Source of the DNA: a bacterium | GTDB taxonomy: Bacteria > BMS3Abin14 | Assembly (NCBI GenBank): GCA_029210545.1 | Contig: JARGFV010000060.1 | Span: 1 to 15,282 of the forward strand | DNA length: 15,282 nt | Direction: 5' to 3' | Part shown: piece by piece, positions 1,394-13,754 of the stretch | Layout: each line of letters starts with the position of its first letter | Numbering within the stretch: the first letter of the stretch is position 1 | The notes under the pieces: generated by a model | Told to the model about the DNA's origin: nothing | The model's input: the letters and a program-made list of their open reading frames with translations, nothing else | Databases searched by the model: none | Translations under genes and position numbers: made by a program

Positions 1394-1432
1394 AACGTGT
1401 GTGCGTCAAACGTACGTGCGTTAGCGCGTGTT
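1394..1432. repeat. Heptad array, GCGT family, after the PaaK-like stop codon
   Basis: Degenerate units of about 7 nt, such as GTGCGTC, AAACGTA and CGTGCGT, start three bases after the TGA stop. CGTACGTGCG (1411-1420) is the exact reverse complement of CGCACGTACG (1852-1861) in the array beyond the next gene, so the two arrays form an inverted pair around it. Confidence 0.6.
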
Positions 1433-1458
1433 GGTCCTGGAATTGCACATGAACCAAC

Positions 1459-1845
1459 ATGGCAAAATTGGCGATCAGTTTCAGAGATCTCGAGGTTTAC
1501 AAAATCTCCATGGAAGCGGCGATGGATGTTCGCTCCCTGGCCCTAAGTTTCCCGGCGAGCGAAAAGTTTTCTCTCTCAGATCAGATAACACGGTCTTCCA
1601 GATCCGTTTGTGCAAATATTGCTGAGGCGTGGCATAAAAGGCGTTATCGAAAAGCCTTTATTGCATCCCTTAACGTGGCTGAAGGCGAAGCGGCTGAAAC
1701 TCGTGTCTGGTTGGAATTTGCATTCAGGTGCAAATATTTGGATCAAAATAATTTTGAATCCCTGGATGATCGGTTCGACCACATATGCCGCATGCTCCAC
1801 CGAATGACCCAAACTGCTGAAAAGTGGACCCGCAGCGGAAATTGA
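1459..1845 (+). CDS. Four helix bundle protein (23S rRNA intervening-sequence type)
   Basis: A 128-residue small helical protein of the family first found in 23S rRNA intervening sequences of Leptospira and others; the family's molecular function is not established. The hallmark N-terminus FRDLEVYK is at residues 8-15. The second helix shows QITRSSRSVCANIAEAW (42-58), matching the family's QIRRA..S...NIAEG pattern. The rest is a highly charged helical region. It is the first possible start after an in-frame TGA at 1450. No Shine-Dalgarno sequence precedes it. The gene is visibly more AT-rich than its neighbours, which suggests transfer. It is flanked by inverted GCGT/ACGC heptad arrays, so it may be a cassette inserted between the ligase and DUF2784 genes. 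There is no rRNA around it. Confidence 0.9.
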   Translation: MAKLAISFRDLEVYKISMEAAMDVRSLALSFPASEKFSLSDQITRSSRSVCANIAEAWHKRRYRKAFIASLNVAEGEAAETRVWLEFAFRCKYLDQNNFESLDDRFDHICRMLHRMTQTAEKWTRSGN

Positions 1846-1850
1846 TCTTT

Positions 1851-1884
1851 TCGCACGTACGCTTCACGGACCTACGCACCCACG
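1851..1884. repeat. Heptad array, ACGC orientation, abutting the DUF2784 start
   Basis: Units such as ACGTACG, CTTCACG and CTACGCA run from just after the four-helix-bundle stop to the base before the next ATG. The array closely resembles the one near 4409: both run TCGCACG, then one variable base, then ACGCTTCACG. It leaves no room for a Shine-Dalgarno sequence upstream of 1885. Confidence 0.6.
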
Positions 1885-2313
1885 ATGCATACTGCTCTCC
1901 CTGACATTCTCATGATCATCCATCTCCTCTGGGTGGTCTTCATGATCGCCGGCCTTCCCCTGGGCTTGTACCTTGGATCTTCCATACTGCGCTGGGCCCA
2001 CTTGACCGGGATGATCATCACCGGCATTTTCGCCGTGCTTGGCCTGTACTGTCCCCTGACGGCCTGGGAGGAGCAGCTGCGCTGGCAGGCCGATCCAGGC
2101 TTCAGCTACCACGGGTCGTTCCTGGCCGAGCGCCTTTCTCCTGTTCTGTACCCGCATGTCGAACCGTGGATCATCAGGACAGCGACCATCTTTTGGCTTG
2201 TCACCACGGTGATTTCCATATTCCTGGTCCCAGGGGGAAAACACCGGGACAGATCTCACAACGGTCCTGCCAGTCCAGGTTCAGGACCCTCTGTCAGACA
2301 GCGGTTCCGTTAG
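1885..2313 (+). CDS. DUF2784 family membrane protein
   Basis: A 142-residue integral membrane protein. Hydrophobic segments lie at about residues 6-29, 35-55 and 93-112. The DUF2784 signature CPLTAWEE sits at the end of the second segment (about 56-63), followed by a loop with YHGSFLAERLSPVLYP, also family-like. The function of DUF2784 proteins is unknown. The charged tail after about residue 115 (KHRDRSHN...) looks poorly conserved. No ribosome site precedes the ATG: the heptad array ends directly against it. The next in-frame ATG (1912) has none either. The stop codon is 6 bases from the convergent stop of the phosphotransferase gene, so there is no terminator between them. Confidence 0.85.
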   Translation: MHTALPDILMIIHLLWVVFMIAGLPLGLYLGSSILRWAHLTGMIITGIFAVLGLYCPLTAWEEQLRWQADPGFSYHGSFLAERLSPVLYPHVEPWIIRTATIFWLVTTVISIFLVPGGKHRDRSHNGPASPGSGPSVRQRFR

Positions 2314-2319
2314 TCGGAG

Positions 2320-4310
2320 CTATCGTTTCGGGGCCAGCCTGTTCTCGAGGATCTGGTCCCAGCTGACCTGTATAAACGAGAGAAGCTGTTTTTTCATGAG
2401 GCCGGGATCGGACGTTAGAGGCTGTCCCGTGTCCAGATCGGTAAAACGCAGGACCTCCCCCTCAGGATCGACGGTAAGGACCTTCCCGTCCTCGATCCAC
2501 CCGTACCCCTGGGAAAAGTTGAGGTAGGCAAAACCCGTGCGGTTTTCCCGCAACAGGGACTGGCCCATGGCGTGGTGGGGGCTCGTGATCCCGAGCAGAT
2601 CAAGCACTGTGGGAACTATATCCAGCTGGGTGCCGACGATACCTGAGACCCCGGGATCGACCCTCCCGGGGGCGATGATCAACAGGGGGATGTGGTAGCG
2701 CTCCGACAAGGAAGCGTTGCTCCGGGCGGCGTGATCGGCCGTGACGATGAAGACCGTGTTTTCCATCAGACCGGCAAGGCGCGCCCTTTCAAAGAACCGG
2801 CCAAGATGGTGATCCGTGTAACGGATCGTGTCCTGAAACGCACCTTCCGTATCTCCGTTTCCGGCGGTACGGAAGGTGTCGTCCGGAAGATCGTAGGGCG
2901 GGTGATTGGTGAGGGACAGCCAGAGGGCAAAAAACGGCTGGCGCTCCTTTCGGACCACTTCGTAGAGACAATCCAGAACAGCGTGATCCCAGGCGCCCCA
3001 GGCGCTGTCGGCCTCCTCGCGGGTAATGCCAAGTTCCTCCCTGCCCAGGTGTTTCTCGACCCCGATCATCCGGGCAAAACTTTTTATCCGGTCCTTTCCA
3101 CTGCTCTCTCCGTGAAGAAACAGGGTGCGATAACCTTGTCGGGCCAGGATCTCCCCCAGGCCCACGAAACGGTTCTGCTCCAGCGAACCCGAAAGCACCG
3201 ACCCCTCGATGAGATCCCCGTGATGGTTGAAGGAGGGGATCCCCATGTTGACAGCCCCCAAACCTTCGATTGTCCGGCTCCCCACCGCATAGAAATTATT
3301 AAAGAGAAGGCCCTCCGATGCCAGTTCATCAAACCGGGGAGTAATGCCGTTTTCATACCCCAGGGAACCGACATACCGGGCCGACCAGCTTTCCAGCATG
3401 ATGAGTACCACCAGGTTCGGTCGATCTTTCGCGTATCGGTCTGGAACGGCACGGGAGCGGTAAAGAGGATACCCGGCGTCTTCCCACAGGACACCGGAAG
3501 CGTCCAGCAGGTCGTGGACATTGTCGAGAGCCTCAACCCTGTCAAGAAAATGGAAACTGCCGGCATTCCCGGCCTGAAGGCTTCTCCCGACCGTGAAGGC
3601 CGGGTTCAGAACCAGGTGCCCCAACTCGGTCCTGCCCTGGCTGAAAGCGTCGACCATCCGGATCGGTTTGCCCGAGACCGTTCCCTTCAGACCAAAGATC
3701 AGGACCACGAAGTACACCAGGAACCATCCGGCTTCAACAGTCCATTTTACTGTTCCATGCCTTTCCCCAAGAGGCCTGAGCACAACCCTCCACAACAGAA
3801 AAAGAACAACGGCCAGGAGGACCAGCGAAAGGATCGACCACCTGTACTCGACCATCATCTTGAGGGAGGCACCCATATCTCCCTCATCCCTGCTGACCTG
3901 AAGGACCTCGTAGGAGAGGTGCCGGCCGGACTCGGTATAGTAGTAGGTATCCAGGACACCGAGGGCGATAATGGGGAAAGTCAGACCGAGGGGTAACCAG
4001 GCGAGGGGCCTTACCAGGTTGCCACTGTTTTTCCAGCCGCCCGGAATATGCAGCAGCAGGAAGAACAGGCCTGTAACAAGCAGGATCACGTGCAGGTCAA
4101 ATCGAATACCGTTGAGAAAGGAAAGGAGGATAGCCGATGTCTCGATGTTCCCGTATATACCCCGGTTGGCAAAGAGAAAAAAAATCTCAACCCGGTCATC
4201 GCCGCGAGAAGGAGCACAAGAGCCGGGACAAAAACACGGAACTGCGGGGGAACGCTCCCACGGATGCGCTCCCTCAAAACGGAAAATTTCATTTTCATGG
4301 TGATTTTCAT
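2320..4310 (-). CDS. LtaS/MdoB-like phosphoglycerol transferase (alkaline phosphatase superfamily), N-terminal frameshift
   Basis: A polytopic inner-membrane protein with a periplasmic sulfatase-fold domain, like lipoteichoic acid synthase and proteobacterial OpgB/MdoB, which transfer phosphoglycerol or a similar headgroup from lipid to glycan. In the main frame, from a GTG at 4089, there are 589 residues: membrane helices up to about 137, then MLESW (metal-ligand Glu233), SRTIEGLG (nucleophile Thr273), TNHPPY (about 394-399) and TADH (Asp452, His453). The sulfatase C/SxPxR motif is absent, as expected for LtaS types. Upstream, the family hallmark NGIRFDL continues in the same frame, but its start is in another frame: ATG at 4310 opens MKITMKMKFS and a first membrane helix ending LRFFF. 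The frames meet at eight A (4177-4184, T on the coding strand). One extra T, or a -1 ribosomal slip, would give about 663 continuous residues. It could be a sequencing error, a pseudogene or slippage. Confidence 0.88.
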
Positions 4311-4408
4311 TTCACCCTGGAGATAACCATCAGGATCTTCGCCGGAGTGCTCCCGTCACAGGTCACATGGTGGGGCGTTGTGCAGGGGAAACTGTTTTTT
4401 TCGCACGC

Positions 4409-4433
4409 ACGCTTCACGCACCCGTGCACCCAT
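4409..4433. repeat. Heptad array, ACGC orientation, downstream of the gamma-subunit gene
   Basis: Units such as ACGCACG, CTTCACG and CACCCGTG lie in the 176-base gap between the phosphotransferase start and the oxidoreductase gamma stop. On the coding strand it reads GTGCGTGAAGCGTGCGTGCG, about 55 bases after the gamma stop. The remainder of the gap (4311-4408) shows nothing recognisable beyond the phosphotransferase leader. Confidence 0.55.
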
Positions 4434-4443
4434 TCTGAGAACT

Positions 4444-4475
4444 CCCATCCTCCACATCCCCAAGCCCTCTCCCCC
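4444..4475 (-). other. Possible G-quadruplex motif after the gamma-subunit stop
   Basis: On the minus strand, guanine runs of 5, 3, 4 and 3 occur in order (C runs at 4471-4475, 4465-4467, 4458-4461 and 4444-4446), with loops of 3, 3 and 11 bases. The first lies 11 bases beyond the gamma-subunit stop codon, so it would be in the mRNA 3' region. The long third loop makes this a weak candidate. Confidence 0.3.
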
Positions 4476-4486
4476 TGTTCAGCCTG

Positions 4487-5032
4487 TTATGCCTTTGCCG
4501 CGTAACGGGCTCCCTGCATGATGGCCTTTTCGTTAAGGGGGATGAGTTTCTTGTTGCGGGCCGAGATGACCGCCTCCAGCGCTCCCGCCAGTTCCGACGG
4601 TTCAATAGCGCCGGTGATCCGGGCGTAGGCACCGAGGGCTACCATATTGGTGAGCCGGGCGTTGCCCAGTTCAATGGCAAGCAGGCTCATGGGAACCTCG
4701 TGGACCTCGATACCGGTCCTTGTGACATCCTCCATCCTGGCCATGGAACTGTTGACGATGAGTTGGCCTCCTTCTTTAACCACATTCTGGAACCGCAGAA
4801 GGGAAGGCTGATTCATGGCGATGACACAGTTGGGGCTGTCCACGATGGGCGACCCGATCTCCCGGTCCGAGAACACCACAGTACAGCGCGCGGTGCCGCC
4901 GCGCATCTCGACCCCGTAGGAGGGGAAGAATGTGACGTTGAGCCCCTTCTCCATGGCCGCTTCGGCCAGGAGCTGCCCGGCCAGGAGGATCCCCTGGCCG
5001 CCGAAACCGGATATGAATACATCGTAGTACAT
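4487..5032 (-). CDS. 2-oxoacid:ferredoxin oxidoreductase, gamma subunit
   Basis: A 181-residue gamma-domain subunit of a cytoplasmic, CoA- and ferredoxin-dependent 2-oxoacid oxidoreductase (PFOR/KOR/VOR superfamily). The Rossmann-like N-terminus GFGGQG is at residues 9-14, and the family-typical [11 protein letters not shown] follows at about 38-48. It is the last gene of the operon ferredoxin, alpha, beta, gamma. ATG at 5032 is chosen because GGAG lies 8 bases upstream and the protein then begins [14 protein letters not shown], as is usual. A TTG at 5056 is also in frame but falls inside the ATCCAAA heptad array. Substrate class (2-oxoglutarate, branched-chain, pyruvate or aryl pyruvate) cannot be decided from this subunit. 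Confidence 0.93.
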
Positions 5033-5042
5033 AGTTACTCCG

Positions 5043-5122
5043 AATCTAAAATCCAAGATCCAAGATCCAAAAAGGGTAGCGATCTACCATTACCTTGGAT
5101 TTTGGTTTTTGGATTTTGGATC
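5043..5122. repeat. Inverted pair of ATCCAAA heptad arrays in the beta-gamma gap
   Basis: On the coding (minus) strand the TGA stop of the beta gene runs straight into four 7-nt units of the type ATCCAAA (about 5094-5120). After a small internal hairpin (GGTAG/CTACC, 5076-5089) come units of the type TCTTGGA (5043-5073), the approximate reverse complement. The 80-base gap can therefore fold on itself as one long imperfect hairpin ending next to the gamma-gene ribosome site. No similarity to the heptad families in the neighbouring gaps is visible beyond the 7-nt period. Confidence 0.7.
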
Positions 5123-5864
5123 AATCGGCTTCCCTTTCCTTAAACACCCCCAGCGGAAAGTACGGAACCAGCTCTTCCTTGATCCGCTTGATGGAGTCAG
5201 ACGGGTTCAGCCCCCAGTTTGTGGGACAGGTGGCAAGAAGTTCAACAAAGGAAAAACCCATCTCCCTGACCTGCATATGAAACGCCTTGAAAACCATCTT
5301 CCTCGCCTTGAGGATGTTCCCGGGGGTGTCGAGGGCCATCCGTCCCACGAAGGAGGGACCCTCCAGTGTGGACAACATCTCGGCTATACGGATGGGATAT
5401 CCGTCGGTATTGAAGTTCCGGCCGTAGGGGGAGGTGGTCGTCTGCTGCCCAAGGAGAGTGGTGGGGGCCATCTGGCCACCCGTCATCCCGTAGACAGTGT
5501 TGTTGACGAAAATGACGGTGACGTTCTCGCCCCGGTTGGCGCAGTGGACGATCTCGGAAAGGCCGATGGAAGCGAGGTCGCCGTCTCCCTGATAGGTAAA
5601 GATGACCAGATCCGGACGGGATCGTTTCATCCCCGTGGCGAGGGCGGGGGCCCGCCCGTGAGGCGCTTCCATGATATCGCAGTTAAAGTAATCGTACATG
5701 AGCACCGCGCAGCCAACGGGAGCGACACCAACGCTCCTTTCGGTGAGATCGTAATGGTCCAGGGCCTCCGCCACCAGCCGGTGGGCGACCCCGTGGCTGC
5801 ACCCGGGACAGTAGTGCATCACGGCGTCGTTGAGGGCGGCAGGTTTTGAGAATACGGTTTTCAT
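5121..5864 (-). CDS. 2-oxoacid:ferredoxin oxidoreductase, beta (thiamine pyrophosphate-binding) subunit
   Basis: A 247-residue TPP-binding subunit that decarboxylates the 2-oxoacid and passes electrons to FeS clusters. CPGCSHG at 19-25 is the conserved cysteine motif near the N-terminus. GDGDLASIG (93-101) with NNTVYGMTGGQ (121-131) forms the TPP and Mg binding motif, and the GQM/S-type segment after it is also typical. The length and motif order match VorA/KorB-type beta subunits rather than the longer PorB. ATG at 5864 has AAGGAAAT a few bases upstream (coding strand). The stop codon leads directly into the ATCCAAA array. The alpha gene lies upstream across a 103-base gap. Confidence 0.94.
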   Translation of the reverse strand: MKTVFSKPAALNDAVMHYCPGCSHGVAHRLVAEALDHYDLTERSVGVAPVGCAVLMYDYFNCDIMEAPHGRAPALATGMKRSRPDLVIFTYQGDGDLASIGLSEIVHCANRGENVTVIFVNNTVYGMTGGQMAPTTLLGQQTTTSPYGRNFNTDGYPIRIAEMLSTLEGPSFVGRMALDTPGNILKARKMVFKAFHMQVREMGFSFVELLATCPTNWGLNPSDSIKRIKEELVPYFPLGVFKEREAD

Positions 5865-5875
5865 AGAATTTCCTT

Positions 5876-5975
5876 AGTTTACGGTTCACGGTTCACAGTT
5901 CACAGAAAAAACCCTTTCAAACGAAAATTCAGAGTAGCACTTACTGTGAACAGTTAACTGTATACTGTTAACTGA
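5876..5975. repeat. Inverted pair of GTTCACG/GTTAACT heptad arrays in the alpha-beta gap
   Basis: Plus-strand units ACGGTTC, ACGGTTC and ACAGTTC occupy 5881-5901. The opposing array at 5942-5975 has units ACTGTGA, ACAGTTA, ACTGTAT and ACTGTTA. GTTCACAG (5898-5905) is the exact reverse complement of CTGTGAAC (5944-5951), so the arrays can pair around a 38-base loop. The second array overlaps the alpha-gene stop codon (5968-5970); the first lies just before the beta-gene ribosome site. Confidence 0.7.
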
Positions 5976-7023
5976 AACTATCTTCTATCTTCTCCAGAAT
6001 CTCATTGGGTGTCGGGATTCCCCCTCCGGGACGGCCGTAGAATGAGACATCGGCTTCCCGGGAGACGTTGAGCCTCACATCTTCCACCATCTGTCCGGTG
6101 TTCATCTCTACAACGAGGATTTTTTTAACCCTTTCGGAAAGTGCCTTCAGTTCCCTTTTAGGGAACGGAAACAAGGTCACAGGACGAAACAGCCCGACCT
6201 TGAGCCCCTTATCCCGAGCCATGCTGACCGCAGTCCGGGCGATGCGGGCGGCTGTACCAAAAGCCGCCACCACCAGTTCGGCATCTTCCGTGAGTAACTC
6301 GTCGCAACGGACCTCGTGCTTTTCGATCTCCCTGTACTTTTCCTGGAGCATGCGGTTGTGTGCCTCCAGCTCACCATCTTTCAGGTACAGGGACTTGAGA
6401 TACCGCATGGGGCGGTTTTTGGCCCCGGTCAGAGCCCACGGTTTCCTGGGCTCAGGTTGAACGTCGTCGCACTCGACAATGGGTTCCTGCATCTGGCCGA
6501 GAACGCCATCGGCAAGGACCATGGTGGGGTTCCGGTAGCGGTCCGCCAGGTGAAAGGCGGCAATGGTGTGATCGTACATCTCCTGTACGCTGGCCGGGGC
6601 AAGGACAATGAGCCTGTAATCCCCGTGACCGCCACCCTTGACCGCCTGAAAATAATCGCCCTGGGACGCGGCGATGCCGCCCAGCCCCGGACCGCAGCGG
6701 ACCACGTTGATAACGACGGCGGGCAGTTCCTGGCCGGCCAGGTAGGAGAGTCCCTCCTGCATAAGGGAGATCCCGGGACTGGAGGAGGATGTCATGGATC
6801 GGACACCGAGGGAGGACGCACCCATGACCATGTTGATGGACGCCAGCTCACTCTCGGCCTGGACGTACTGTCCGCCGAGACCGGGCAGGACCCGGGACAT
6901 ATACTCGGGCACCTCGTTCTGGGGAGTGATAGGGTATCCGAAGTAAAAAAGGCACCCCGCCTTGATGGCTCCCATGGCCAGGGCCTCGTTCCCCTTGACT
7001 AGAATCCGTTTTGACTCAGACAA
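5968..7023 (-). CDS. vorB: 2-oxoacid:ferredoxin oxidoreductase, alpha subunit (VorB/KorA type)
   Basis: A 351-residue alpha subunit holding the pyrimidine-binding domain I and domain II. The hallmark GYPITPQNEVPEYM (29-42) is followed by ESELASINMVMGAS (about 58-71) and SSSPGISLMQEG (about 79-90). The length and pattern fit the family usually annotated as 3-methyl-2-oxobutanoate (branched-chain 2-oxoacid) dehydrogenase VorB, but KorA of 2-oxoglutarate oxidoreductase is close, so the symbol is tentative. The start is TTG at 7023: the coding strand has GGAGAGATATT before it, and the protein then begins MSESKRILVKGNEALA as family members do. The ferredoxin gene is upstream with a 123-base gap that carries an AGCACGT-type heptad array and a 21-bp inverted repeat. 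Confidence 0.92.
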   Translation of the reverse strand: MSESKRILVKGNEALAMGAIKAGCLFYFGYPITPQNEVPEYMSRVLPGLGGQYVQAESELASINMVMGASSLGVRSMTSSSSPGISLMQEGLSYLAGQELPAVVINVVRCGPGLGGIAASQGDYFQAVKGGGHGDYRLIVLAPASVQEMYDHTIAAFHLADRYRNPTMVLADGVLGQMQEPIVECDDVQPEPRKPWALTGAKNRPMRYLKSLYLKDGELEAHNRMLQEKYREIEKHEVRCDELLTEDAELVVAAFGTAARIARTAVSMARDKGLKVGLFRPVTLFPFPKRELKALSERVKKILVVEMNTGQMVEDVRLNVSREADVSFYGRPGGGIPTPNEILEKIEDSFS

Positions 7024-7054
7024 AATATCTCTCCGGTTTTTTCTATCAGCAGCA

Positions 7055-7103
7055 CTGAGCTACGGATCATGTGCCAAGTGCTACGTGCTATGAGGTATGA
7101 GCT
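7055..7103. repeat. Heptad array of AGCACGT type between ferredoxin and alpha genes
   Basis: On the coding strand seven successive 7-nt units can be laid end to end over exactly 49 bases: AGCTCAT, ACCTCAT, AGCACGT, AGCACTT, GGCACAT, GATCCGT and AGCTCAG. It begins immediately after the 21-bp inverted repeat and ends about 30 bases before the alpha-gene start. The unit is unrelated to those in the other gaps. Confidence 0.65.
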
Positions 7104-7160
7104 AAGTTTTCAAATGATCAGCCGTCTATTTTCTTGCGGCGGCTGATCATTTGAAAACTT
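7104..7160. repeat. Perfect 21-bp inverted repeat overlapping the ferredoxin gene end
   Basis: Positions 7104-7124 and 7140-7160 are exact reverse complements with a 15-base spacer. The arm at 7140-7160 covers the last codons (GAA GTT TTC AAA) and the stop codon of the ferredoxin gene; the other arm is an inverted copy of that gene tail. There is no T run after the hairpin on the coding strand, so it is not a classical terminator. It could stabilise or process the mRNA between ferredoxin and alpha genes, or be a template-switch inverted duplication. Confidence 0.85.
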
Positions 7161-7353
7161 CGATGCACATGTCCGGGCACACCACACCGCACACGGTACA
7201 CCCCGTGCACCTTCCATCGGGATCGTCGAGGATGACGTACTGGTACCCCTGGTCGTTGATCGCCTTCTTCTGGCGGATAAGGACGTGGGGACAGACCTCG
7301 ACGCAAAGGACACACCCTTTGCATTTTATTTCATCTATCTTGATAGTCGGCAT
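7147..7353 (-). CDS. 2-oxoacid:ferredoxin oxidoreductase, delta subunit (2[4Fe-4S] ferredoxin)
   Basis: A 68-residue dicluster ferredoxin that carries electrons from the catalytic subunits. The first cluster is at Cys11, Cys14, Cys17 and Cys21 followed by Pro22. The second is at Cys49, Cys52, Cys55 and Cys59 followed by Pro60. It is the first gene of the operon. ATG at 7353 is chosen because the product then starts MPTIKIDEIKCKGC, as is normal for this subunit. A longer reading from 7434 would add residues with no family resemblance, and ATG at 7359 is two codons longer with an equally weak ribosome site. The gene end lies inside a perfect inverted repeat. Confidence 0.92.
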   Translation of the reverse strand: MPTIKIDEIKCKGCVLCVEVCPHVLIRQKKAINDQGYQYVILDDPDGRCTGCTVCGVVCPDMCIEVFK

Positions 7354-7452
7354 AAACATCCCAATCTCAGATCTTAAATAATCGTTGAACGGTGAAGAGT
7401 TGGCACCGACCGGACCTTGCACCCTAATCACCACCTGCCCCGAGCCTGGTCG

Positions 7453-7485
7453 ACCGGTGTCTCCGCGTCACCGTGTCTCCGCGTC
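7453..7485. repeat. GCGGAGACAC tandem repeat over the PAP2 stop codon
   Basis: On the coding (minus) strand two copies of a 16-base unit, GACGCGGAGACACGGT and GACGCGGAGACACCGG, lie in tandem. The first encodes the last residues of the PAP2 protein; the TGA stop straddles the junction. Internally the units approximate a 7-8 nt period. Beyond it, 7354-7452 shows only a weak remnant (GTTGAACGGTGAAG at 7384-7397) and no clear promoter. Confidence 0.6.
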
Positions 7486-8394
7486 CGGCTCTCTCTCCAC
7501 CACTCCCATGCGCCCCCTCTCCCCCTCGGGAGCAGCTTCACAGCTGCCGTACACCCTCTTCCCCCACAAGAACACCGCGAGACCGACAACCACGCCGGCG
7601 ACGACATCGCTCGCGTAGTGGTAACGGTTGTACACCGTGGAGATGCAGAGCATGGTAACCAGGGGCGTCATCCAGAATGCCATCCGTCGCCTGTAGGTCC
7701 ACGCAAGCAGCAGAACGACCAGGGCCACTGCCACGTGGGAACTGGGCATGCAGCCGCCCTGGATATCGCCGTGCTCCATGATGAAATCCTGGAGAGCCGT
7801 AACAAAGTACCCGTCAAGAGGCCCATTGTAAAGATGGGAAAGCATGTATCTCGGACCCACCACCGGGAACAGGATGAAACCGGAATAGGATATGAAAAAC
7901 GCTGCTGAAATGGTAAAGATGCTCCGCCGGAAGGGGATCAGGTCACCCTTTCGGTAAAGGGAGATCCCGAGGATGGGGCCGATCCAGTAATAGGAATTGT
8001 ACGATATCTTCATGATCTCTGTCAGGACGGGGCTGGCGAACTGCTCCATCCAGACCGACGGGTGAATCCCGAGGAGCGCCTTTTCGAAGTCGTAGATCAG
8101 GTGGTCCAGATACCGCCCGTGCAGGCCGAGGATGAACCGGTCGATCTGCTCGTAAAATACCGCCAGGGAGAGAGGGATGTACCAGTATCGGAAGAACCTG
8201 ATCACCGGGTGAGGGTGCTTGTCCGCGTACCTGAGGAAGAAGATGACCGCGGCGGCCCCTGCAGCGTGGCTGATCACATACAGCCACCACCGTTGGACCC
8301 CGTTGTGAAACAGGGTGACGAATACGGATATCCCCGCCAGGTAAACGAGAAAGGCCGTGTCTTCGGGGCGGAAAAGGCCATCATTGTGGGTCAT
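7468..8394 (-). CDS. PAP2_3-type membrane phosphatase / inositolphosphotransferase-like protein
   Basis: A 308-residue polytopic membrane protein of the PAP2 superfamily, which hydrolyses or transfers lipid-linked phosphates. In this numbering PSSH is at about 217-220 and the third motif STVYNRYHYASD at 252-263, giving catalytic His220, His259 and Asp263. The arginine of the classical SRxxxxxHxxxD motif is threonine here, which together with FPVVGPRY (about 176-183) matches the PAP2_3 branch related to Aur1-type inositol phosphorylceramide synthases. About six membrane helices are expected. ATG at 8394 is chosen as the first codon clear of the heptad array; it has no visible ribosome site. 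In-frame starts at 8439 and 8460 would translate the repeat. The C-terminal residues EPDAETR are encoded by another repeat. The substrate is unknown. Confidence 0.87.
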   Translation of the reverse strand: MTHNDGLFRPEDTAFLVYLAGISVFVTLFHNGVQRWWLYVISHAAGAAAVIFFLRYADKHPHPVIRFFRYWYIPLSLAVFYEQIDRFILGLHGRYLDHLIYDFEKALLGIHPSVWMEQFASPVLTEIMKISYNSYYWIGPILGISLYRKGDLIPFRRSIFTISAAFFISYSGFILFPVVGPRYMLSHLYNGPLDGYFVTALQDFIMEHGDIQGGCMPSSHVAVALVVLLLAWTYRRRMAFWMTPLVTMLCISTVYNRYHYASDVVAGVVVGLAVFLWGKRVYGSCEAAPEGERGRMGVVEREPDAETR

Positions 8395-8400
8395 TGTCGA

Positions 8401-8432
8401 GTTCACAGTATACGGTTTACGGTTAACAGTGA
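8401..8432. repeat. GTTCACAG/GTTAACAG heptad array before the PAP2 start
   Basis: Units TTCACAG, TATACGG, TTTACGG and TTAACAG run at a 7-nt period from 8402. The array lies 6 bases upstream of the PAP2 ATG. It is the same family as the arrays at 5876, 8601 and 9053. Confidence 0.65.
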
Positions 8433-8445
8433 AAATCATGGTGCA

Positions 8446-8494
8446 CCAAATCAATGACAAGCTGCGCCTGGACTTTTCGCGACCCTGTCAAATT
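8446..8494. repeat. Copy of the dispersed GGACTTTTTGCGAG element
   Basis: GGACTTTTCGCGACCCTGTC (8470-8489) resembles cores at 57-77 and 13001-13022. Its reverse complement, ACAGGGTCGCGAAAAGTCC, aligns closely with 12977-12995 (ATAGGGTCGCAAAAAGTCC). The flank AAATCAATGAC (8449-8459) is also found inverted near the first copy (TCATTGATTT, 21-30). Confidence 0.6.
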
Positions 8495-8530
8495 GCTGAC
8501 CGGCGATTATTAACCGTAACGGCTGATCTG

Positions 8531-8586
8531 TCCACCCTGAGCTTGCCTGCCATGACCCGGCCGCCTGTCCTGAGCTTGTCGAAGGG
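8531..8586. repeat. CCTGAGCTTG repeat (CTTCGACAAGCTCAGG-type intergenic sequence)
   Basis: CCTGAGCTTG occurs at 8536-8545 and again at 8569-8578, the second extending as GTCCTGAGCTTGTCGAAGGG (8567-8586). The reverse complement CCCTTCGACAAGCTCAGG is a sequence I recall as a common intergenic repeat in many unrelated bacterial genomes; its role is not known to me. Confidence 0.55.
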
Positions 8587-8600
8587 AATTGACGAAGAAT

Positions 8601-8657
8601 AAACCGTGGACCGTGAACCGTGAACGGTCATCCCATTGCTGACGCAATGGGATGACC
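8601..8657. repeat. GTGAACC heptad array with a 14-bp hairpin
   Basis: Units AACCGTG, GACCGTG, AACCGTG and AACGGTC (8602-8629) lead into a perfect hairpin. GGTCATCCCATTGC (8626-8639) and GCAATGGGATGACC (8644-8657) pair around TGAC. No T run follows on either strand, so a terminator role is unlikely. Confidence 0.7.
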
Positions 8658-8844
8658 CCCGTGTCAAATCCCCTCACATGTGTGATTTCCCCCACGACCT
8701 GAGCGGACTCAAAGGGCCAGATTCTGGATATGTATTTGTAACTTATTGTTATCAAAGATATATATCAACATCCCGATTCCACACCTTATAGGGAATGTTT
8801 TTTGCAACTAATTGGTTGAGAATCGGGGAAACAGGGTTATTTAG

Positions 8845-8994
8845 GTCAAAACACACGGTATTCATCTTTCCCTTACAAAAGGACCTCCGGGGGCTGCCCC
8901 GAGGCGGGAACCTCCTTCTTAAAGCCCCCGCTGCAATAGGTGCAGCGGGGGCGCCTCCCTTTGAAAAGGAATGGCTCGATGCCATTCCTTTTTT
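8845..8994 (+). ncRNA. Candidate non-coding transcript: tandem hairpins ending in a terminator
   Basis: In the gene-free region 8658-9052 the plus strand shows an imperfect hairpin CCTCCGGGG/CCCCGAGG (about 8884-8904), a perfect 12-bp stem GCCCCCGCTGCA/TGCAGCGGGGGC (8924-8952, loop ATAGG), and then a terminator at 8964-8994. A possible promoter, TTGAGA (8816-8821) and TATTTA spaced 16 bases, lies upstream. No convincing protein is encoded on either strand and no known RNA family is recognised (6S, SRP, RNase P and tmRNA signatures were looked for). The whole could instead be the distal 3' end of the leftward ABC-transporter operon. Confidence 0.3.
8964..8994 (+). terminator. Rho-independent terminator (plus-strand T run; weaker on minus)
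   Basis: AAAAGGAATGGC (8964-8975) and GCCATTCCTTTT (8981-8992) form a perfect 12-bp stem with loop TCGAT, followed by T run 8989-8994. Read leftward it has only four T after the stem, but could still end transcription of the ABC-transporter operon, whose last stop is at 9176. Confidence 0.75.
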
Positions 8995-9052
8995 AGTACT
9001 AAGAATTAAAGCCTGGTTTGGAGGAAAGTGAAAACCATAGCTTCGCGATCTG

Positions 9053-9081
9053 ACTGTGAACCGTTAACAGTAAACCGTATG
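9053..9081. repeat. GTGAACC/GTTAACA heptad array
   Basis: Units ACTGTGA, ACCGTTA, ACAGTAA and ACCGTAT follow at a 7-nt period from 9053. It is in roughly inverted orientation to the array at 8401, so the two bracket about 680 bases. Confidence 0.6.
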
Positions 9082-9127
9082 CTTAGCAAAATAAGGTCCT
9101 CGCCAGAAAGCTGGTGCCGCTCCTGAG

Positions 9128-9175
9128 CTACCCACACTCTACGCTTTCACGCTCCACGCTCTACGCACACACGGA
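9128..9175. repeat. Heptad array, GCGT family, directly after the second permease stop
   Basis: On the coding strand the TGA is followed within two bases by GTGTGTG, CGTAGAG, CGTGGAG and CGTGAAA units and a further CGTAGAG, with a 7-nt period broken by one extra base. It is the cleanest array of this family. Confidence 0.65.
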
Positions 9176-10159
9176 TCATTTAAGACGTGGATCGACGGCA
9201 TCCCTGAGACCCTCTCCCACGAGATTATACGCCGTGACGGTGATGAAGATGGCCGCTCCCGGGAAGATGGTGAGCCACCAGGCAAAATCGATGTAATTCT
9301 TGGACTGGGACAGGATCTCACCCCAGGAAGGGGTGGGGGGCGGGACACCGAACCCGAGGTAGCTCAGGGATGACTCGACGAGGATGGCCCCGGCGATGCC
9401 GAAGGTGGCCGAAACCAGCACCGGCGCCAGGGAGTTGGGCAGGATATGATAAAAGATGATCCGCAGGTCGGAAGCCCCGATGGCACGGGCGGCGATCACG
9501 TAATCCAGCTGACGCTGCTTGAGAAACTCTCCCCTTACGAGGCGCGCCACACCAGGCCAGCCTGTCACTCCGATGATCACCATGATGTTGTAGATGCTCG
9601 GTTTCAGGAACGCGAGGACGGTGAGGATGAGAAAAAAGGTTGGAAAGCACATCATCACCTCGATGGCACGGCTGATGACAGCATCCATCTTCCCCCCGAA
9701 ATACCCGGCCAGGGCTCCCAGAAAGACACCGATGAAGATGTATATGGACACCGCCACGAAACCCACCGAAAGAGAGACCCTCGAACCGTGGACCATGCGG
9801 GCCATGACGTCCCTGCCGCGATCGTCCGTACCGAGGAGGTGGTCCGCTCCCGGAGGCATGAGGTTTTCGGCAAGGTTGATCTCGGTGGGCCCATAGCGGA
9901 TGGGCGGATAAAGAGCCCAGCCCCGATCCTCCTCGCCGGCCCGGTTGAACGCCCGATCCGCTTTTTTGGAGACCGAGGGGAAAAGGAGATCGCCGCCCAC
10001 CACCGCCGCTATGGGACGGCTGCCGGCGATAAAGGGCGCCGCCAGGGCGATGACGAACAGGATGAGAACAAAAACCAGTCCCGCGATGGCTACCGGATCG
10101 CGCCGGTACTGGGCCCAGACCAGTCTCGTGTAGCTCTGTTTTTTCACTCCCGGGTTCAT
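9176..10159 (-). CDS. Peptide-type ABC transporter permease (OppC/DppC family)
   Basis: A 327-residue inner-membrane permease of an oligopeptide/dipeptide importer. The N-terminal OppC_N region with the first helix (about 17-46) is followed by a long periplasmic segment, LLGTDDRGRDVMARMVHGSR (about 111-130), a family hallmark, and the EAA-type coupling motif AARAIGASDLRIIFYHILPN at about 224-243. The C-terminus ends GLRDAVDPRLK, typical for OppC. ATG at 10159 lies 15 bases after the first permease's stop without a visible ribosome site, so translation may be coupled. No ATPase gene follows: the next genes downstream are unrelated. Confidence 0.93.
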   Translation of the reverse strand: MNPGVKKQSYTRLVWAQYRRDPVAIAGLVFVLILFVIALAAPFIAGSRPIAAVVGGDLLFPSVSKKADRAFNRAGEEDRGWALYPPIRYGPTEINLAENLMPPGADHLLGTDDRGRDVMARMVHGSRVSLSVGFVAVSIYIFIGVFLGALAGYFGGKMDAVISRAIEVMMCFPTFFLILTVLAFLKPSIYNIMVIIGVTGWPGVARLVRGEFLKQRQLDYVIAARAIGASDLRIIFYHILPNSLAPVLVSATFGIAGAILVESSLSYLGFGVPPPTPSWGEILSQSKNYIDFAWWLTIFPGAAIFITVTAYNLVGEGLRDAVDPRLK

Positions 10160-10174
10160 GATATCAAGAGGGGG

Positions 10175-11179
10175 TCACGACTCGTAGCTGATGCGGGGAT
10201 CTACCCAGACGTAAAGCAGATCCGACACCAGGATGCCGAAGAGGGTGAGAAAAGCCGAGATGGTGGCGATGGCCAGCACCACCGGGTAATCCCTGGACAG
10301 GACAGCTTCGAAACCGAGCTGCCCCATGCCGGGGATGGAAAAGATGCTCTCGATGATGACGCTGCCGCCGAACATGGCGGGCAGGAGGTACCCCATGAGA
10401 GTGATGATGGGAATAAGCGAGTTGCGCATGGCGTGCTTGAAGATGACGAGCTTTTCCGGCAGGCCCTTGGCCCGGGCAGTGCGGATATAATCCTGGCGGA
10501 TCACCTCCAGCATGCTGGCCCGCTGGTATCGGGAAAGGGCCGCAAACCCGCCATAGGTCAGGCAGAACACGGGGAGGACGAGGTGCCAGAAGTGGTCGAA
10601 AAGCCTGGCCAGGAACGGCTGGCTCTCCATGCCTGTCGAGGTGATCCCGTAGACCGGGAACCAGTCCAGGAAGTCCCCTCCACCGAGGAACATGATGAGA
10701 AGAGCCGCCACCCAGAAGTTGGGGAGAGAATAGAGGATAAAGAGGGCAATGGTGCTCATCCGGTCGCCCATGGTGCCCTGCTTCACAGCCGAGAAAACTC
10801 CGATAGGGATCGCGATGAGATAGACGAGGAAGATGGAGATGAGGTTGAGCTCCACCGTAACGGGGAGCCGCTCCGCGATCTTGTCGAAGACCGGCCGGTG
10901 ATCCTTGTAGGAGGTCCCGAAGTCGAGGGTGACGATCCTTTTGATCCAGATCCCGTAACGGGTCCAGATGGGCTTGTCGAGACCGTAAAGTTTCTTCGTC
11001 TGCTCCACGATCTGCAGGGTGACCTCATCGCCCATCATCCCCTGATCCCCCATGCGCAGCTTCATGGCCGCCGGATCGCCGGGAGCCAGCTGGATCACCA
11101 GGAAAGTGATGAGGGTGATCCCCAGGAAGGTGGGGATGATGAGCAGCAGCCGCCGTATGAGGTATTCGCGAAGGTTCAT
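10175..11179 (-). CDS. Peptide-type ABC transporter permease (OppB/DppB family)
   Basis: A 334-residue inner-membrane permease. The start MNLREYLIRRLLLIIPTFLG and the following ITLITFLVIQLAPGDPA (about 21-37) are classic OppB. The cytoplasmic EAA-type motif RTARAKGLPEKLVIFKHAMR is at about 227-246, and the protein ends DLLYVWVDPRISYES, also family-typical. GAGGTAACCGC precedes the ATG at 11179. It pairs with the OppC-type permease downstream and the binding protein upstream. The 136-base gap to the binding protein holds inverted heptad arrays and a small hairpin. Confidence 0.94.
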   Translation of the reverse strand: MNLREYLIRRLLLIIPTFLGITLITFLVIQLAPGDPAAMKLRMGDQGMMGDEVTLQIVEQTKKLYGLDKPIWTRYGIWIKRIVTLDFGTSYKDHRPVFDKIAERLPVTVELNLISIFLVYLIAIPIGVFSAVKQGTMGDRMSTIALFILYSLPNFWVAALLIMFLGGGDFLDWFPVYGITSTGMESQPFLARLFDHFWHLVLPVFCLTYGGFAALSRYQRASMLEVIRQDYIRTARAKGLPEKLVIFKHAMRNSLIPIITLMGYLLPAMFGGSVIIESIFSIPGMGQLGFEAVLSRDYPVVLAIATISAFLTLFGILVSDLLYVWVDPRISYES

Positions 11180-11189
11180 GCGGTTACCT

Positions 11190-11320
11190 CGTGTGTGCGT
11201 GGAGCGTACTTGCGTGATGGCGAAAATTCAGGATTCTGAGGCTTCGCCTTTTTGATGTACGCACAGACCATGAATAAAAAGTTTTTACGCACCAACGCTT
11301 TACGCACCAACGCACCTACT
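11190..11320. repeat. Inverted pair of GCGT heptad arrays between binding protein and permease genes
   Basis: On the coding strand, GTGCGTT, GGTGCGT, AAAGCGT and TGGTGCG follow the TAG stop of the binding-protein gene at a strict 7-nt period (11288-11315). An inverted array (ACGCAAG, TACGCTC, CACGCAC) lies at 11190-11217 just before the permease ribosome site. Between them, GGCGAA (11219-11224) and TTCGCC (11243-11248) with an inner TCAG/CTGA stem form a hairpin followed by five T on the plus strand. Confidence 0.65.
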
Positions 11321-12944
11321 TGAACCGCTGATTCCTGGCCGGCACCCACCACTCTGTGGTGTCGATGCCCAGCGGGTAGATGTTGACGTTCTCGAAACGG
11401 CGGTCGATGGCCACCAGGCTCTCGCCAACGAAAAGGAAGGTGTAGGGCTGCTCCTCGTGGAGGATCCGGTGGAACCGCCGGTAGAGCTTGACCCGTGCTT
11501 CCTTGTCGAAGGTGACCCTGGCCTCTTCGATGATCCTGTCCGCCTCCCTGTTGCTGAACCCGACGTGGTTGGACCCACTTTCCACCTGGCTGGAGTGCCA
11601 CACCTGGTAAGGGTCCGCCTCGACGGGCAGGCTCCACCCAAGGGTGACGGCATCGTAGGTCCTGTCGTCCAGCACCTGGGTGAAAAGGGCCCACTCGAGG
11701 GGGCGGATCGTCATCTCGATGCCGACCTTGGAAAACTCTTCCTTCAGGACGGTGGAAAGCTGCTCGTGGAACTGGACACCCGAAACGATGGAAAATTCGA
11801 AACGGAAAGGGACGCCGTCCTTGTCGCGGACCCCGTCATCGTCAGTGTCCACCCACCCCGCCTCATCCAGCAGGGCCGCGGCGGCCTTCGGGTCATAGGG
11901 CCAGGGTTCAATGGCCTTGTCGTAGTCGGGGCCCTCGTAAAAAAAGCTGCCGGTTACGATGTTGCCAAAACCGAAGAGAAGGTTTTCCAGGATCGCTTCC
12001 CGGTCCACCAGCATGGTCAGGGCCCGCCTCACCATTCGATCCTCGAAAAACGGCCGCCGGGAATTCCACCCGATGTAGCGGTAGCCGGGCAGGTAGTACT
12101 TGTGCTTGTCGAACATCCTCTTGAACTTCCTGGTTTCGGTCTGTCTCACCCACTGGATGGGATTCAGGGCCATGAGATCCATCTCACCGCTTTTGAGAAC
12201 ATTCAGGGCTGCGTTGTCGTCAGTGATGATCTTGAAGACGATCCTGCCCAGGTTGGGCTTTTCTCCCCAGTAGGCATCGTTTTTCTCGAGGACGATCTCC
12301 TTGCCGGTGTCCCACTTGACGAACCGGTAGGGACCCGTACCCAGGGGAGCCCGTCCCGTTGGGTGGGTGTTGAAATCACCCTTGGAAAAAAGATGTTTCG
12401 GGATGATCGACTGGCCGCCGATCATCTCCAGCGATTTGAAGTACGGTTTTGAAAAGGTGAACCTCACCGTTCTGCCGTCGAGGGCCTCGACCTTGACCAG
12501 ATCCTTGAAATAGCTTTTCAGGTGGGGACTGTCCACGCCGGGATCCACGATACGGTCGAAGGTGTAGGTAACGTCCCCGGAAGTGAGGGGCTGTCCGTTC
12601 TGCCAGGTGACCCCGTCCCGGAGGGTGAACAGGTAGCTCAACCGGTCGGGAGATATCTCGAACGTCTCGGCCAGCAGGGGGACGAGATCCAGAGTCCGGT
12701 TGTCCCTTTCAAGGAGGCTCTCGTAAATGTAGCCGTTGACGCTGCCCTCGTAGACGTCGGTGGCCGTCACCGGGTTTAACGTGGCCGGTTCGGCAGACAG
12801 GTGTCGAATCAGCCAGTCGCCGGTCTCGGGAGCCGCGGCGTCCCCAGCAGCCCAGGCCCCCGTGGGGATCGCGAGGAAAAGAGCCAGCAGCAGCCCGGCC
12901 AGCAAAGAACCTTTCGGAGATGAAAGTCTGTGGGTCCTTGACAC
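11316..12944 (-). CDS. Peptide-binding protein of an ABC transporter (SBP family 5)
   Basis: A 542-residue periplasmic solute-binding protein. A signal peptide (hydrophobic core about 14-28, likely cut after GAWA near 32) has no lipobox cysteine, so it is soluble and periplasmic. Family landmarks are EPATLNPVTATD (about 52-63), YIYESLLERD, TWQNGQPLTSGDVTYTFDRI (about 118-137), GTGPYRF and an acidic DTDDDGVRDKDG loop (about 353-364) that looks calcium-binding. The family serves oligopeptides, dipeptides, nickel and other ligands; the ligand here is not readable. The start is GTG at 12944, supported by AAGGAGG five bases upstream on the coding strand. It is first in the operon with the two permeases. 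Confidence 0.95.
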   Translation of the reverse strand: MSRTHRLSSPKGSLLAGLLLALFLAIPTGAWAAGDAAAPETGDWLIRHLSAEPATLNPVTATDVYEGSVNGYIYESLLERDNRTLDLVPLLAETFEISPDRLSYLFTLRDGVTWQNGQPLTSGDVTYTFDRIVDPGVDSPHLKSYFKDLVKVEALDGRTVRFTFSKPYFKSLEMIGGQSIIPKHLFSKGDFNTHPTGRAPLGTGPYRFVKWDTGKEIVLEKNDAYWGEKPNLGRIVFKIITDDNAALNVLKSGEMDLMALNPIQWVRQTETRKFKRMFDKHKYYLPGYRYIGWNSRRPFFEDRMVRRALTMLVDREAILENLLFGFGNIVTGSFFYEGPDYDKAIEPWPYDPKAAAALLDEAGWVDTDDDGVRDKDGVPFRFEFSIVSGVQFHEQLSTVLKEEFSKVGIEMTIRPLEWALFTQVLDDRTYDAVTLGWSLPVEADPYQVWHSSQVESGSNHVGFSNREADRIIEEARVTFDKEARVKLYRRFHRILHEEQPYTFLFVGESLVAIDRRFENVNIYPLGIDTTEWWVPARNQRFK

Positions 12945-12968
12945 AAAGTCCTCCTTGTCACCATAATC

Positions 12969-13022
12969 AGCTATTGATAGGGTCGCAAAAAGTCCTGGCG
13001 GGACTTTTTACGAGGTCATCAA
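12969..13022. repeat. Palindromic copy of the GGACTTTTTGCGAG element between divergent genes
   Basis: AAAAAGTCC (12987-12995) and GGACTTTTT (13001-13009) pair around TGGCG; TCG/CGA extends the stem past one mismatch. Both strands have a run of five T, so it looks like a bidirectional terminator. It sits between divergent genes where no terminator is expected, which favours a repeat element or a regulatory palindrome. The flank ATAGGGTCGCAAAAAGTCC matches the copy near 8470. Confidence 0.65.
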
Positions 13023-13051
13023 CTATTACCTGCCATCCGAAGGGAAAGGAC

Positions 13052-13630
13052 ATGTCCCTGCCAGATCGAAAACAAGCGCTCACAAAAGCTCTCCAGGATC
13101 CTGAGGAAATGGTCCGCGCAGCGGCCTCCCGGGCCCTGGACCGTGTGGAGGGGCTCGAAAGGCTTGCCGATATCATCGAGACCGCTTCCGGTGGGGAGAA
13201 GCCCGGCCGCATCAGGGCCATCCATTTCCTGGGGTTCCTGGGTACCGACGAATCGGTGAATGCCATGCTGAGGCATCTCCAGGACCCTGAACCCGATATC
13301 CGTGTCGCCGCTGTGAAGGCAGCCCAGATCAACCTTCCCGGGCGCGCCCTCGTCCCCCTCCTCGGAGCCCTTGAAGATCCGGACATCTCGGTTGTCCAGG
13401 TCGTCATCGAGACCCTGTCATACTACCGTGATCCCAAGGTCACCGAGTTCATCCTGCCCTTTTTAAATTTCCAGGACACGGAAACCGCCGGTGTTGCGGC
13501 GGAGGGTCTCGGCCGCAACGGCGATCCCAGGGCCGAACCTTACCTGATCAAGGTTCTGGCAGAAACCGGGGACCCGTTCCTGCGCGCCCGCGTCGCCGAA
13601 GCGCTGGGGAATCTCAGACCTGCTGTCTGA
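13052..13630 (+). CDS. Small HEAT-repeat protein
   Basis: A 192-residue all-helical protein made almost wholly of HEAT repeats (about five or six units of 30 residues). Typical unit signatures are DPEEMVRAAASRAL (about 14-27), DPEPDIRVAAVKA (about 76-88), DPDISVVQVVIETL and DPFLRARVAEALGNL near the end. Such proteins are protein-protein scaffolds; no enzyme motif is present. ATG at 13052 is chosen because AAGGGAAAGGAC lies just before it; a reading from 12920 would translate the palindromic element and the binding-protein gene region. It is convergent with the HD-GYP gene, with inverted heptad arrays in between. A link to c-di-GMP signalling through its neighbour is only a guess. Confidence 0.88.
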   Translation: MSLPDRKQALTKALQDPEEMVRAAASRALDRVEGLERLADIIETASGGEKPGRIRAIHFLGFLGTDESVNAMLRHLQDPEPDIRVAAVKAAQINLPGRALVPLLGALEDPDISVVQVVIETLSYYRDPKVTEFILPFLNFQDTETAGVAAEGLGRNGDPRAEPYLIKVLAETGDPFLRARVAEALGNLRPAV

Positions 13631-13754
13631 CCCGTGCGTCCGTAGAGCGTACGTGCATTAAGCGTAAGATCATCCGGACGTACAAACATTAACAATTCAC
13701 GCGAAAACCCCAAGAACCTCGCATCCACGCACACACCCTTCACGCACCTACGGG
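13631..13754. repeat. Inverted pair of GCGT heptad arrays between convergent genes
   Basis: After the HEAT-gene TGA the plus strand reads GTGCGTC, CGTAGAG, CGTACGT, GCATTAA and GCGTAAG (13634-13668). From the HD-GYP TAG the minus strand reads GTGCGTG, AAGGGTG, TGTGCGT and GGATGCG (13720-13747). Both genes therefore run directly into the same repeat family in sense orientation. There is no ordinary terminator in the gap. Confidence 0.65.

Follow-up and report, generated by a model that had tools for sequence, protein, structure and literature searches.

The DNA analysed here, referred to as the window, is an entire contig (C60; 15,282 nt) from a bacterial genome of 2.72 Mb in 241 contigs (97.5% complete). 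It encodes a four-helix-bundle protein of the IVP (S23p) family, whose gene lies between two short tandem arrays, and further arrays lie in other gaps. The initial annotation had reported some 17 intergenic arrays, and about 17-18 are identifiable:

1394-1430, plus strand: left (5') array of the window IVP cassette, CGTGCGT-type, mixed 7/8 nt (period 15)
1459-1845, plus strand: IVP/S23p four-helix-bundle gene (PF05635, E 2.4e-32; weak bAvd match)
1850-1884, minus strand: right (3') array of the window IVP cassette, ACGCACG, the reverse complement of the left unit
4402-4431, minus strand: orphan array, ACGCACG-type, in the gap 4317-4486
5043-5070, plus strand: left array ATCCAAG, of a pair without a gene
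5095-5121, minus strand: right array TTGGATT, inverted partner of 5043-5070
5877-5905, plus strand: left array GTTCACG/A
5943-5974, minus strand: right array GTGAACA/GTTAACT, inverted partner of 5877-5905
7055-7104, unstranded: array AGCACTG/TGCTACG/TGCTATG, like the GCTATG unit of the source-genome IVP cassette L002
7459-7485, minus strand: 8-nt array GTCTCCGC/GTCACCGT, whose unit type is that of subfamily-A IVP cassettes from other phyla
8400-8433, plus strand: left array GTTCACAGTATACGGTTTACGG
8603-8628, minus strand: right array GTGAACC, inverted partner of 8400-8433
9053-9079, minus strand: array GTGAACCGTTAACAGTAAACC, unpaired, in the gap of the 8400/8603 arrays
9132-9173, minus strand: array CTCTACGCTTTCACGCTCCACGC, unpaired
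11191-11216, plus strand: left array GTGTGTGCGTGGAGCGTACTTGCGTG
11258-11316, minus strand: right array TACGCACAG..TTTACGCACCAACGC x2, inverted partner of 11191-11216
13633-13673, plus strand: left array CGTGCGTCCGTAGAGCGTACGTGC
13726-13753, minus strand: right array CACGCACACACCCTTCACGCACC, inverted partner of 13633-13673

Read from their sequences, the arrays pair as 1394/1850, 5043/5095, 5877/5943, 8400/8603, 11191/11258 and 13633/13726. Across the window gaps the lag-7 match was 0.307 versus 0.253 in dinucleotide shuffles (z 5.2), with lesser peaks at lags 14, 15 and 21, and the gaps 5033-5120, 5865-5967, 7024-7146, 7354-7467 and 8395-9175 were individually significant. The arrays had been described as having a period near 7 nt throughout, which holds for many of them, while others have a period of 8 or a mixture of 7 and 8 (lag 15). 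At 7055-7104, the AGCACGT-type array was confirmed. In contrast, the GTGCGTA-type arrays once assigned to 7 nt (1394, 1850, 11191, 11284, 13633 and 13726) gave no lag-7 score, their 7- and 8-nt steps alternating to yield lag 15, while 8 rather than 7 is the period of the GCGGAGACAC type (7459-7485).

Other repeats also occur on the contig. A dispersed repeat with the core GACTTTTTGCGA lies at 55-75, at the contig start (130 exact matches on both strands of a 1.18-Mb sample of the source genome); it is also found near other IVP loci (L007) and bears no relation to the arrays. The contig end (15219-15282) is a second repeat, ACTATTCACGAGGTTC (10 exact matches in 1.18 Mb), which also adjoins the IVP cassette of L001 and at which contigs appear to break. 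The motif CCTGAGCTTGTCGAA (7 exact matches in 1.18 Mb) lies at 8569-8583, between the 8400 and 8603 arrays.

Periodicity and array pairing in the source genome

The source-genome sample comprised 1.18 Mb of the 2.72 Mb (60 stretches plus the window), with genes called by a simple codon-usage caller, so that gap borders are approximate. The proposed spacing periodicity survived comparison with shuffled intergenic DNA: lag-7 autocorrelation in the gaps stood 41.5 SD above dinucleotide shuffles, accompanied by its harmonics at lags 14 (z = 22.8) and 21 (z = 12.1) and by lag 8 (z = 13.8), which ranks second among the short lags and has no harmonic tie to 7. Coding DNA of the same sample showed no lag-7 excess (match 0.2498), only the codon period. 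In the sampled gaps a segment detector returned 342 seven-nt and 135 eight-nt arrays, versus roughly 13-40 at most other lags, harmonics aside, and 233 of 653 gaps contained a seven-nt array. The 342 seven-nt arrays use 152 distinct canonical units, which drift inside arrays; the claim of varied units at a single spacing thus extends genome-wide, joined by a second class of 8 nt.

Neighbouring arrays are frequently inverted copies of a common theme. Among 132 array neighbours no more than 700 nt apart, 21 shared a unit in inverted and 4 in direct orientation, versus 2.7% inverted and 2.7% direct among random array pairs. Nine IVP (PF05635) genes were identified in the source genome, five of which (L001, L002, L005, which is the window, L006 and L008) are enclosed by inverted arrays whose units differ by locus (GTTTACG, GCTATGG, CGTGCGT and the 8-nt units GGTATGGA and CGGAGTAA). 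Of the remaining genes, some lie at contig ends, some are truncated and some have a single flanking array; at L003 a clear inverted pair was not found. Arrays far outnumber IVP genes (342 seven-nt arrays in 1.18 Mb versus nine genes genome-wide) and most have no IVP gene nearby. Of the 342, only 83 fall within one base of a seven-nt cassette unit from this genome, a minority, though above the 40 expected; gene-less arrays are at most putative derivatives of cassettes.

IVP cassettes across phyla and the link of period to IVP phylogeny

Protein sequence alone was used to search 84,980 species, with the subfamily alignment of the window's IVP, as IVP alignment A1 was too diverse for a collection-wide scan. 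The search recovered 80 loci of this subfamily in the Acidobacteriota, Bacteroidota, Chloroflexota, Cyanobacteriota, Verrucomicrobiota, Planctomycetota, Nitrospirota, Fidelibacterota and others, and arrays flanked the IVP gene on both sides in 56 of them. Within 200-nt flanks, two-sided arrays occurred at 55/78 IVP genes versus 9/149 control ORFs of the same loci, and the lag-8 match was 0.35-0.40 up to 150 nt from IVP genes versus 0.24-0.27 farther away. The array-IVP-array layout also occurs in relatives of the source genome and in unrelated families. The cassette architecture is present in many phyla, and the arrays travel with the gene. A weak lag-7 signal was seen in G004, in which no IVP was detected, and in a small comparison of IVP-free with IVP-bearing relatives, with several contigs masked, some signal was present in the IVP-free G004 and G006.

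The two arms of a cassette resemble one another in specific ways. They were inverted in 50 of the 56 two-sided loci and equal in period in 53, and in 51 an arm matched its own partner better than swapped arms. The order of units is not mirrored between arms (mean z about 0, n = 52), suggesting that the arms share a common vocabulary rather than a copied stem; an ordered stem was rejected on this ground, and a conserved base-paired stem is not supported. The purine-richer array is the upstream one in 49/50 eight-nt and 27/35 seven-nt cassettes. Arrays had a median length of 4.75 units with a wide spread and many longer examples, as scored by a detector that is itself biased, and a strict five-unit site matching a pentamer was unsupported given these varying lengths.

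The solved relatives of the window IVP, 2rld and 2gsc, contain five chains each; 2gsc is the structure of XCC0516, the IVP of X. campestris. On a tree of 109 IVPs, in which few alignment columns leave many forks unresolved, the 7/8 period label required 10 changes versus 35.6 when shuffled, and none of 500 shuffles gave a value as low. The source genome holds both 7- and 8-nt kinds, each with its own IVP clade, so the period is not dictated by the host. Unit similarity likewise tracked IVP distance (rho -0.46, permutation SD 0.055), and between phyla, for the 8-nt type only, the correlation (rho -0.19, SD 0.078) exceeded that in all 300 permutations. The IVP clade thus goes with both unit length and unit type. 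Recognition of the units by IVP could explain this tracking, as could shared ancestry of the block with its gene; under either reading the arrays are tied to IVP.

Cassettes mostly run co-directionally with both neighbouring genes (36 along versus 3 against), as would be expected if they depend on, or merely persist in, a host transcript. This sense-strand bias in operons, together with unit variation and the weak similarity of the window IVP to bAvd, would suit a route through RNA in which IVP, as kin to the Avd proteins of diversity-generating retroelements, acts as the partner of a reverse transcriptase. That route is nonetheless very improbable: no RVT_1 matches were found in the 97.5%-complete source genome (G000) or in G001 (closed) and G008, both one-contig IVP carriers (three and six IVP genes, respectively), and it was rejected for that reason. 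Similarly doubtful is a REP/RAYT-like process, in which a Y1 transposase would act on array hairpins. In its favour, the arrays are intergenic and paired, and Y1_Tnp genes occurred in 19 of 21 genomes examined. However, IVP-free genomes have Y1 genes equally, two IVP carriers (G010 and G011, incomplete assemblies) had no Y1 match, and clear inverted-array flanks were seen at only one (L263) of 20 Y1 loci inspected. This route was also rejected, Y1 loci being present regardless of IVP and, save that one, not flanked by arrays. At L263 (in G004), a RAYT-like Y1 transposase gene lies between inverted 8-nt arrays of GTTAAGTT (1385-1405 and 2451-2472).

Mobility of the array-IVP-array block

Comparisons among Microcystis genomes place the same block in different surroundings. 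One cassette of 470-505 nt, about 94-97% identical between copies, occurs at two unrelated sites, and the homology between these sites stops at the arrays. In the Neomarinimicrobiota, L163 and L176 have nothing in common beyond a 584-nt block at 96% identity and a 29-nt stretch. At a third Microcystis site, nine genomes have the uninterrupted, array-free sequence AAAATTATCCCCCCACCCTGGG (its C run slightly variable), while in G053 about 520 nt, including the arrays, have been inserted between flanks 96-99% identical to those of its nine relatives. In this one clean case, the block was inserted into an array-free site. Any duplication there amounts to at most 3-4 C, and the target CCCCACCCT resembles the array unit CACCCTACACCCCA, so that microhomology may guide insertion, as judged from this single sequence comparison. 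No other clean empty site was found; at L207 and L209 the flanks are themselves repeated, making the empty-site comparison uninformative.

Replication slippage, with 7 nt as a favoured step and IVP as a chance or selected neighbour, would make the arrays ordinary microsatellites. Copy number and unit mix do vary among Microcystis genomes at one site, and the slippage listed as possible in the initial annotation accounts for copy-number change among relatives. Earlier surveys cited in PMC4679880, in which heptamers were the most frequent class of long repeat, had also invoked slippage. Slippage does not account for inverted pairs with a common unit, for two-sided arrays concentrated at a single gene family relative to control ORFs, for a period that tracks the IVP tree rather than the host genome, or for the entry of an entire block into an array-free site. 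Slippage is therefore improbable as the origin of the arrays and strongly disfavoured as the whole story.

At Microcystis site 2, the outer arrays are constant while the content between them varies: six genomes have IVP there, four have other sequence, and G041 and G050 diverge further. Across its copies (L233-L244), one array pair holds three or more unrelated contents between flanks 96-98% identical, and cassette exchange at this site is possible. AAATTA on both sides is a single suggestive target-site duplication; over 83 cassettes, no excess of duplications was found immediately outside the arrays, and the signal was marginal when array sequence was counted. Retained outer arrays, the lack of target-site duplication and a unit common to cassette and site are all compatible with arrays that were in place beforehand and served as landing pads or recombination hot spots, with IVP genes as passengers swapped by homologous recombination or gene conversion. 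This alternative is unlikely, though it carries more weight than slippage, as the site-3 target is array-free in nine genomes, cassettes including their arrays are common to loci with unrelated flanks, and unit type tracks IVP clade across phyla.

Plasmids, some of them conjugative, also bear IVP genes, and all six plasmid copies inspected had two-sided arrays; one cassette lies between cas6 and cas4 and another beside sufB. The arrays of L319 (Pseudanabaena plasmid, between cas6 and cas4) and L317 (Oscillatoria plasmid) are direct rather than inverted, an arrangement seen in these 2/6 plasmid cassettes and in a few others. Among 50,697 phage records, no IVP match was obtained with the subfamily-B query.

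The preferred reading, with a probability of about 0.7, is that the arrays are the paired inverted ends of minimal IVP-bearing mobile elements. Each element would measure about 0.45-0.65 kb and consist of a tandem 7- or 8-nt array, an IVP gene and a second array of the same unit in inverted orientation; IVP is the only gene content of the cassettes. The arrays are probably the binding sites of IVP. A pentameric ring of four-helix-bundle subunits would bind them at about one unit per subunit, which would hold the spacing constant and leave the sequence free to drift, and could bring the two array ends together. Movement would then proceed by host recombination or replication, with no cassette-encoded transposase, a route favoured because reverse transcriptase is absent from several carriers and Y1 genes, save one, are not array-flanked. 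Gene-less array pairs would be non-autonomous or decayed relatives, which may change copy number by slippage and swap contents by recombination between arrays. The initial annotation, in offering a modular nucleic-acid-binding protein, was right in kind, the candidate being the IVP encoded at 1459-1845 between two arrays. Its picture of intergenic arrays with a special period of 7, a freely varying unit and something shared other than one conserved sequence also stands, though it overlooked the inverted pairs, the IVP-bearing mobile element, the period of 8 and the dependence on IVP clade.

A broader proposal, put forward tentatively and at less than even odds, is that IVP is a ring-shaped end binder defining a transposase-free class of mobile element, in which subunits read units, the clade sets unit length and gene-less arrays are mobilised in trans. 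If so, bacterial heptamer and octamer repeats would largely be the footprint of the IVP family. The design would unite two puzzles, the orphan protein S23/IVP and the repeats built of tandem heptamers, turning the function of the one and the commonness of the other between bacterial genes into a single testable question, for which a gene, a unit length that tracks gene phylogeny and empty sites for comparison are now available. It would also place such elements within operons, as in the cassette flanked by cas6 and cas4, and on conjugative plasmids, and repeats previously taken for G-quadruplex motifs in Xanthomonas, regulator sites in Geobacter or post-transcriptional signals in Beggiatoa may be parts of mobile elements.

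Comparison with known systems

The TRAP ring binds spaced triplets on RNA, and by analogy an IVP ring taking one unit per subunit would parallel it. The short tandemly repeated repetitive (STRR) sequences of cyanobacteria are intergenic tandem heptamers in near-identical copies of one unit and, to our knowledge, have been described without inverted pairing or an associated gene. The arrays considered here are likewise intergenic tandem heptamers, but comprise 152 units among 342 arrays and drift within arrays, so that their copies are not near-exact. Unlike MITEs and insertion sequences, cassettes have ends that differ at every locus and no clear excess of target-site duplication. They also differ from diversity-generating retroelements (Avd) in the absence of reverse transcriptase from the carriers G000, G001 and G008, and from REP/RAYT systems in that a Y1 gene was tied to repeats at only 1/20 loci.

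Several described repeats share parts of the design. TAACTGA heptamers occur in Beggiatoaceae, cyanobacteria and Bacteroidetes, and horizontal spread with a repeat-binding protein as the mobile part was suspected (MacGregor 2015, PMC4679880). AACTGAT/TAACTGA is the unit of the Microcystis site 1 and site 2 cassettes, although PMC4679880 identified no element or gene and S23/IVP is unmentioned there. In Xanthomonas, arrays of GGGAATC heptamers are mostly of four units, and each genome has 70-75 such arrays in inverted pairing, counted as pairs (Rehm et al. 2015, PMC4692102). Compared by description, they resemble cassettes in being heptamer arrays in inverted pairs, and X. campestris encodes the IVP XCC0516; however, they were read as G-quadruplex-forming and the IVP link was not made (PMC4692102). 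The sites of Geobacter metallireducens, each with three to five heptamers or octamers in tandem and usually paired on opposite strands, were instead read as binding sites of unknown global regulators (PMC2700814). No literature joining such arrays to IVP was found in the library searched, which covers few subscription papers and preprints.

The closest relative is the intervening sequence (IVS) of 23S rRNA. In Coxiella burnetii, this is a 428-nt element with an S23p ORF and inverted ends, in which two or three tandem GACAGAT heptamers, variable among strains, lie ahead of the ORF (PMC4990558). Cassettes share with it a PF05635 protein, a similar size and inverted ends. In contrast to the IVS, which lies in 23S rRNA helices, cassettes lie between protein genes, end in tandem 7/8-nt arrays of unmirrored order and occur in many phyla and many copies. 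No rRNA match was found in the window and 19 cassette loci (20 sources), and no insertion in helix 25 or 45 was encountered. Because this rRNA location is lacking, the cassettes fall outside the 23S rRNA IVS class and are a variant of the IVS kind.
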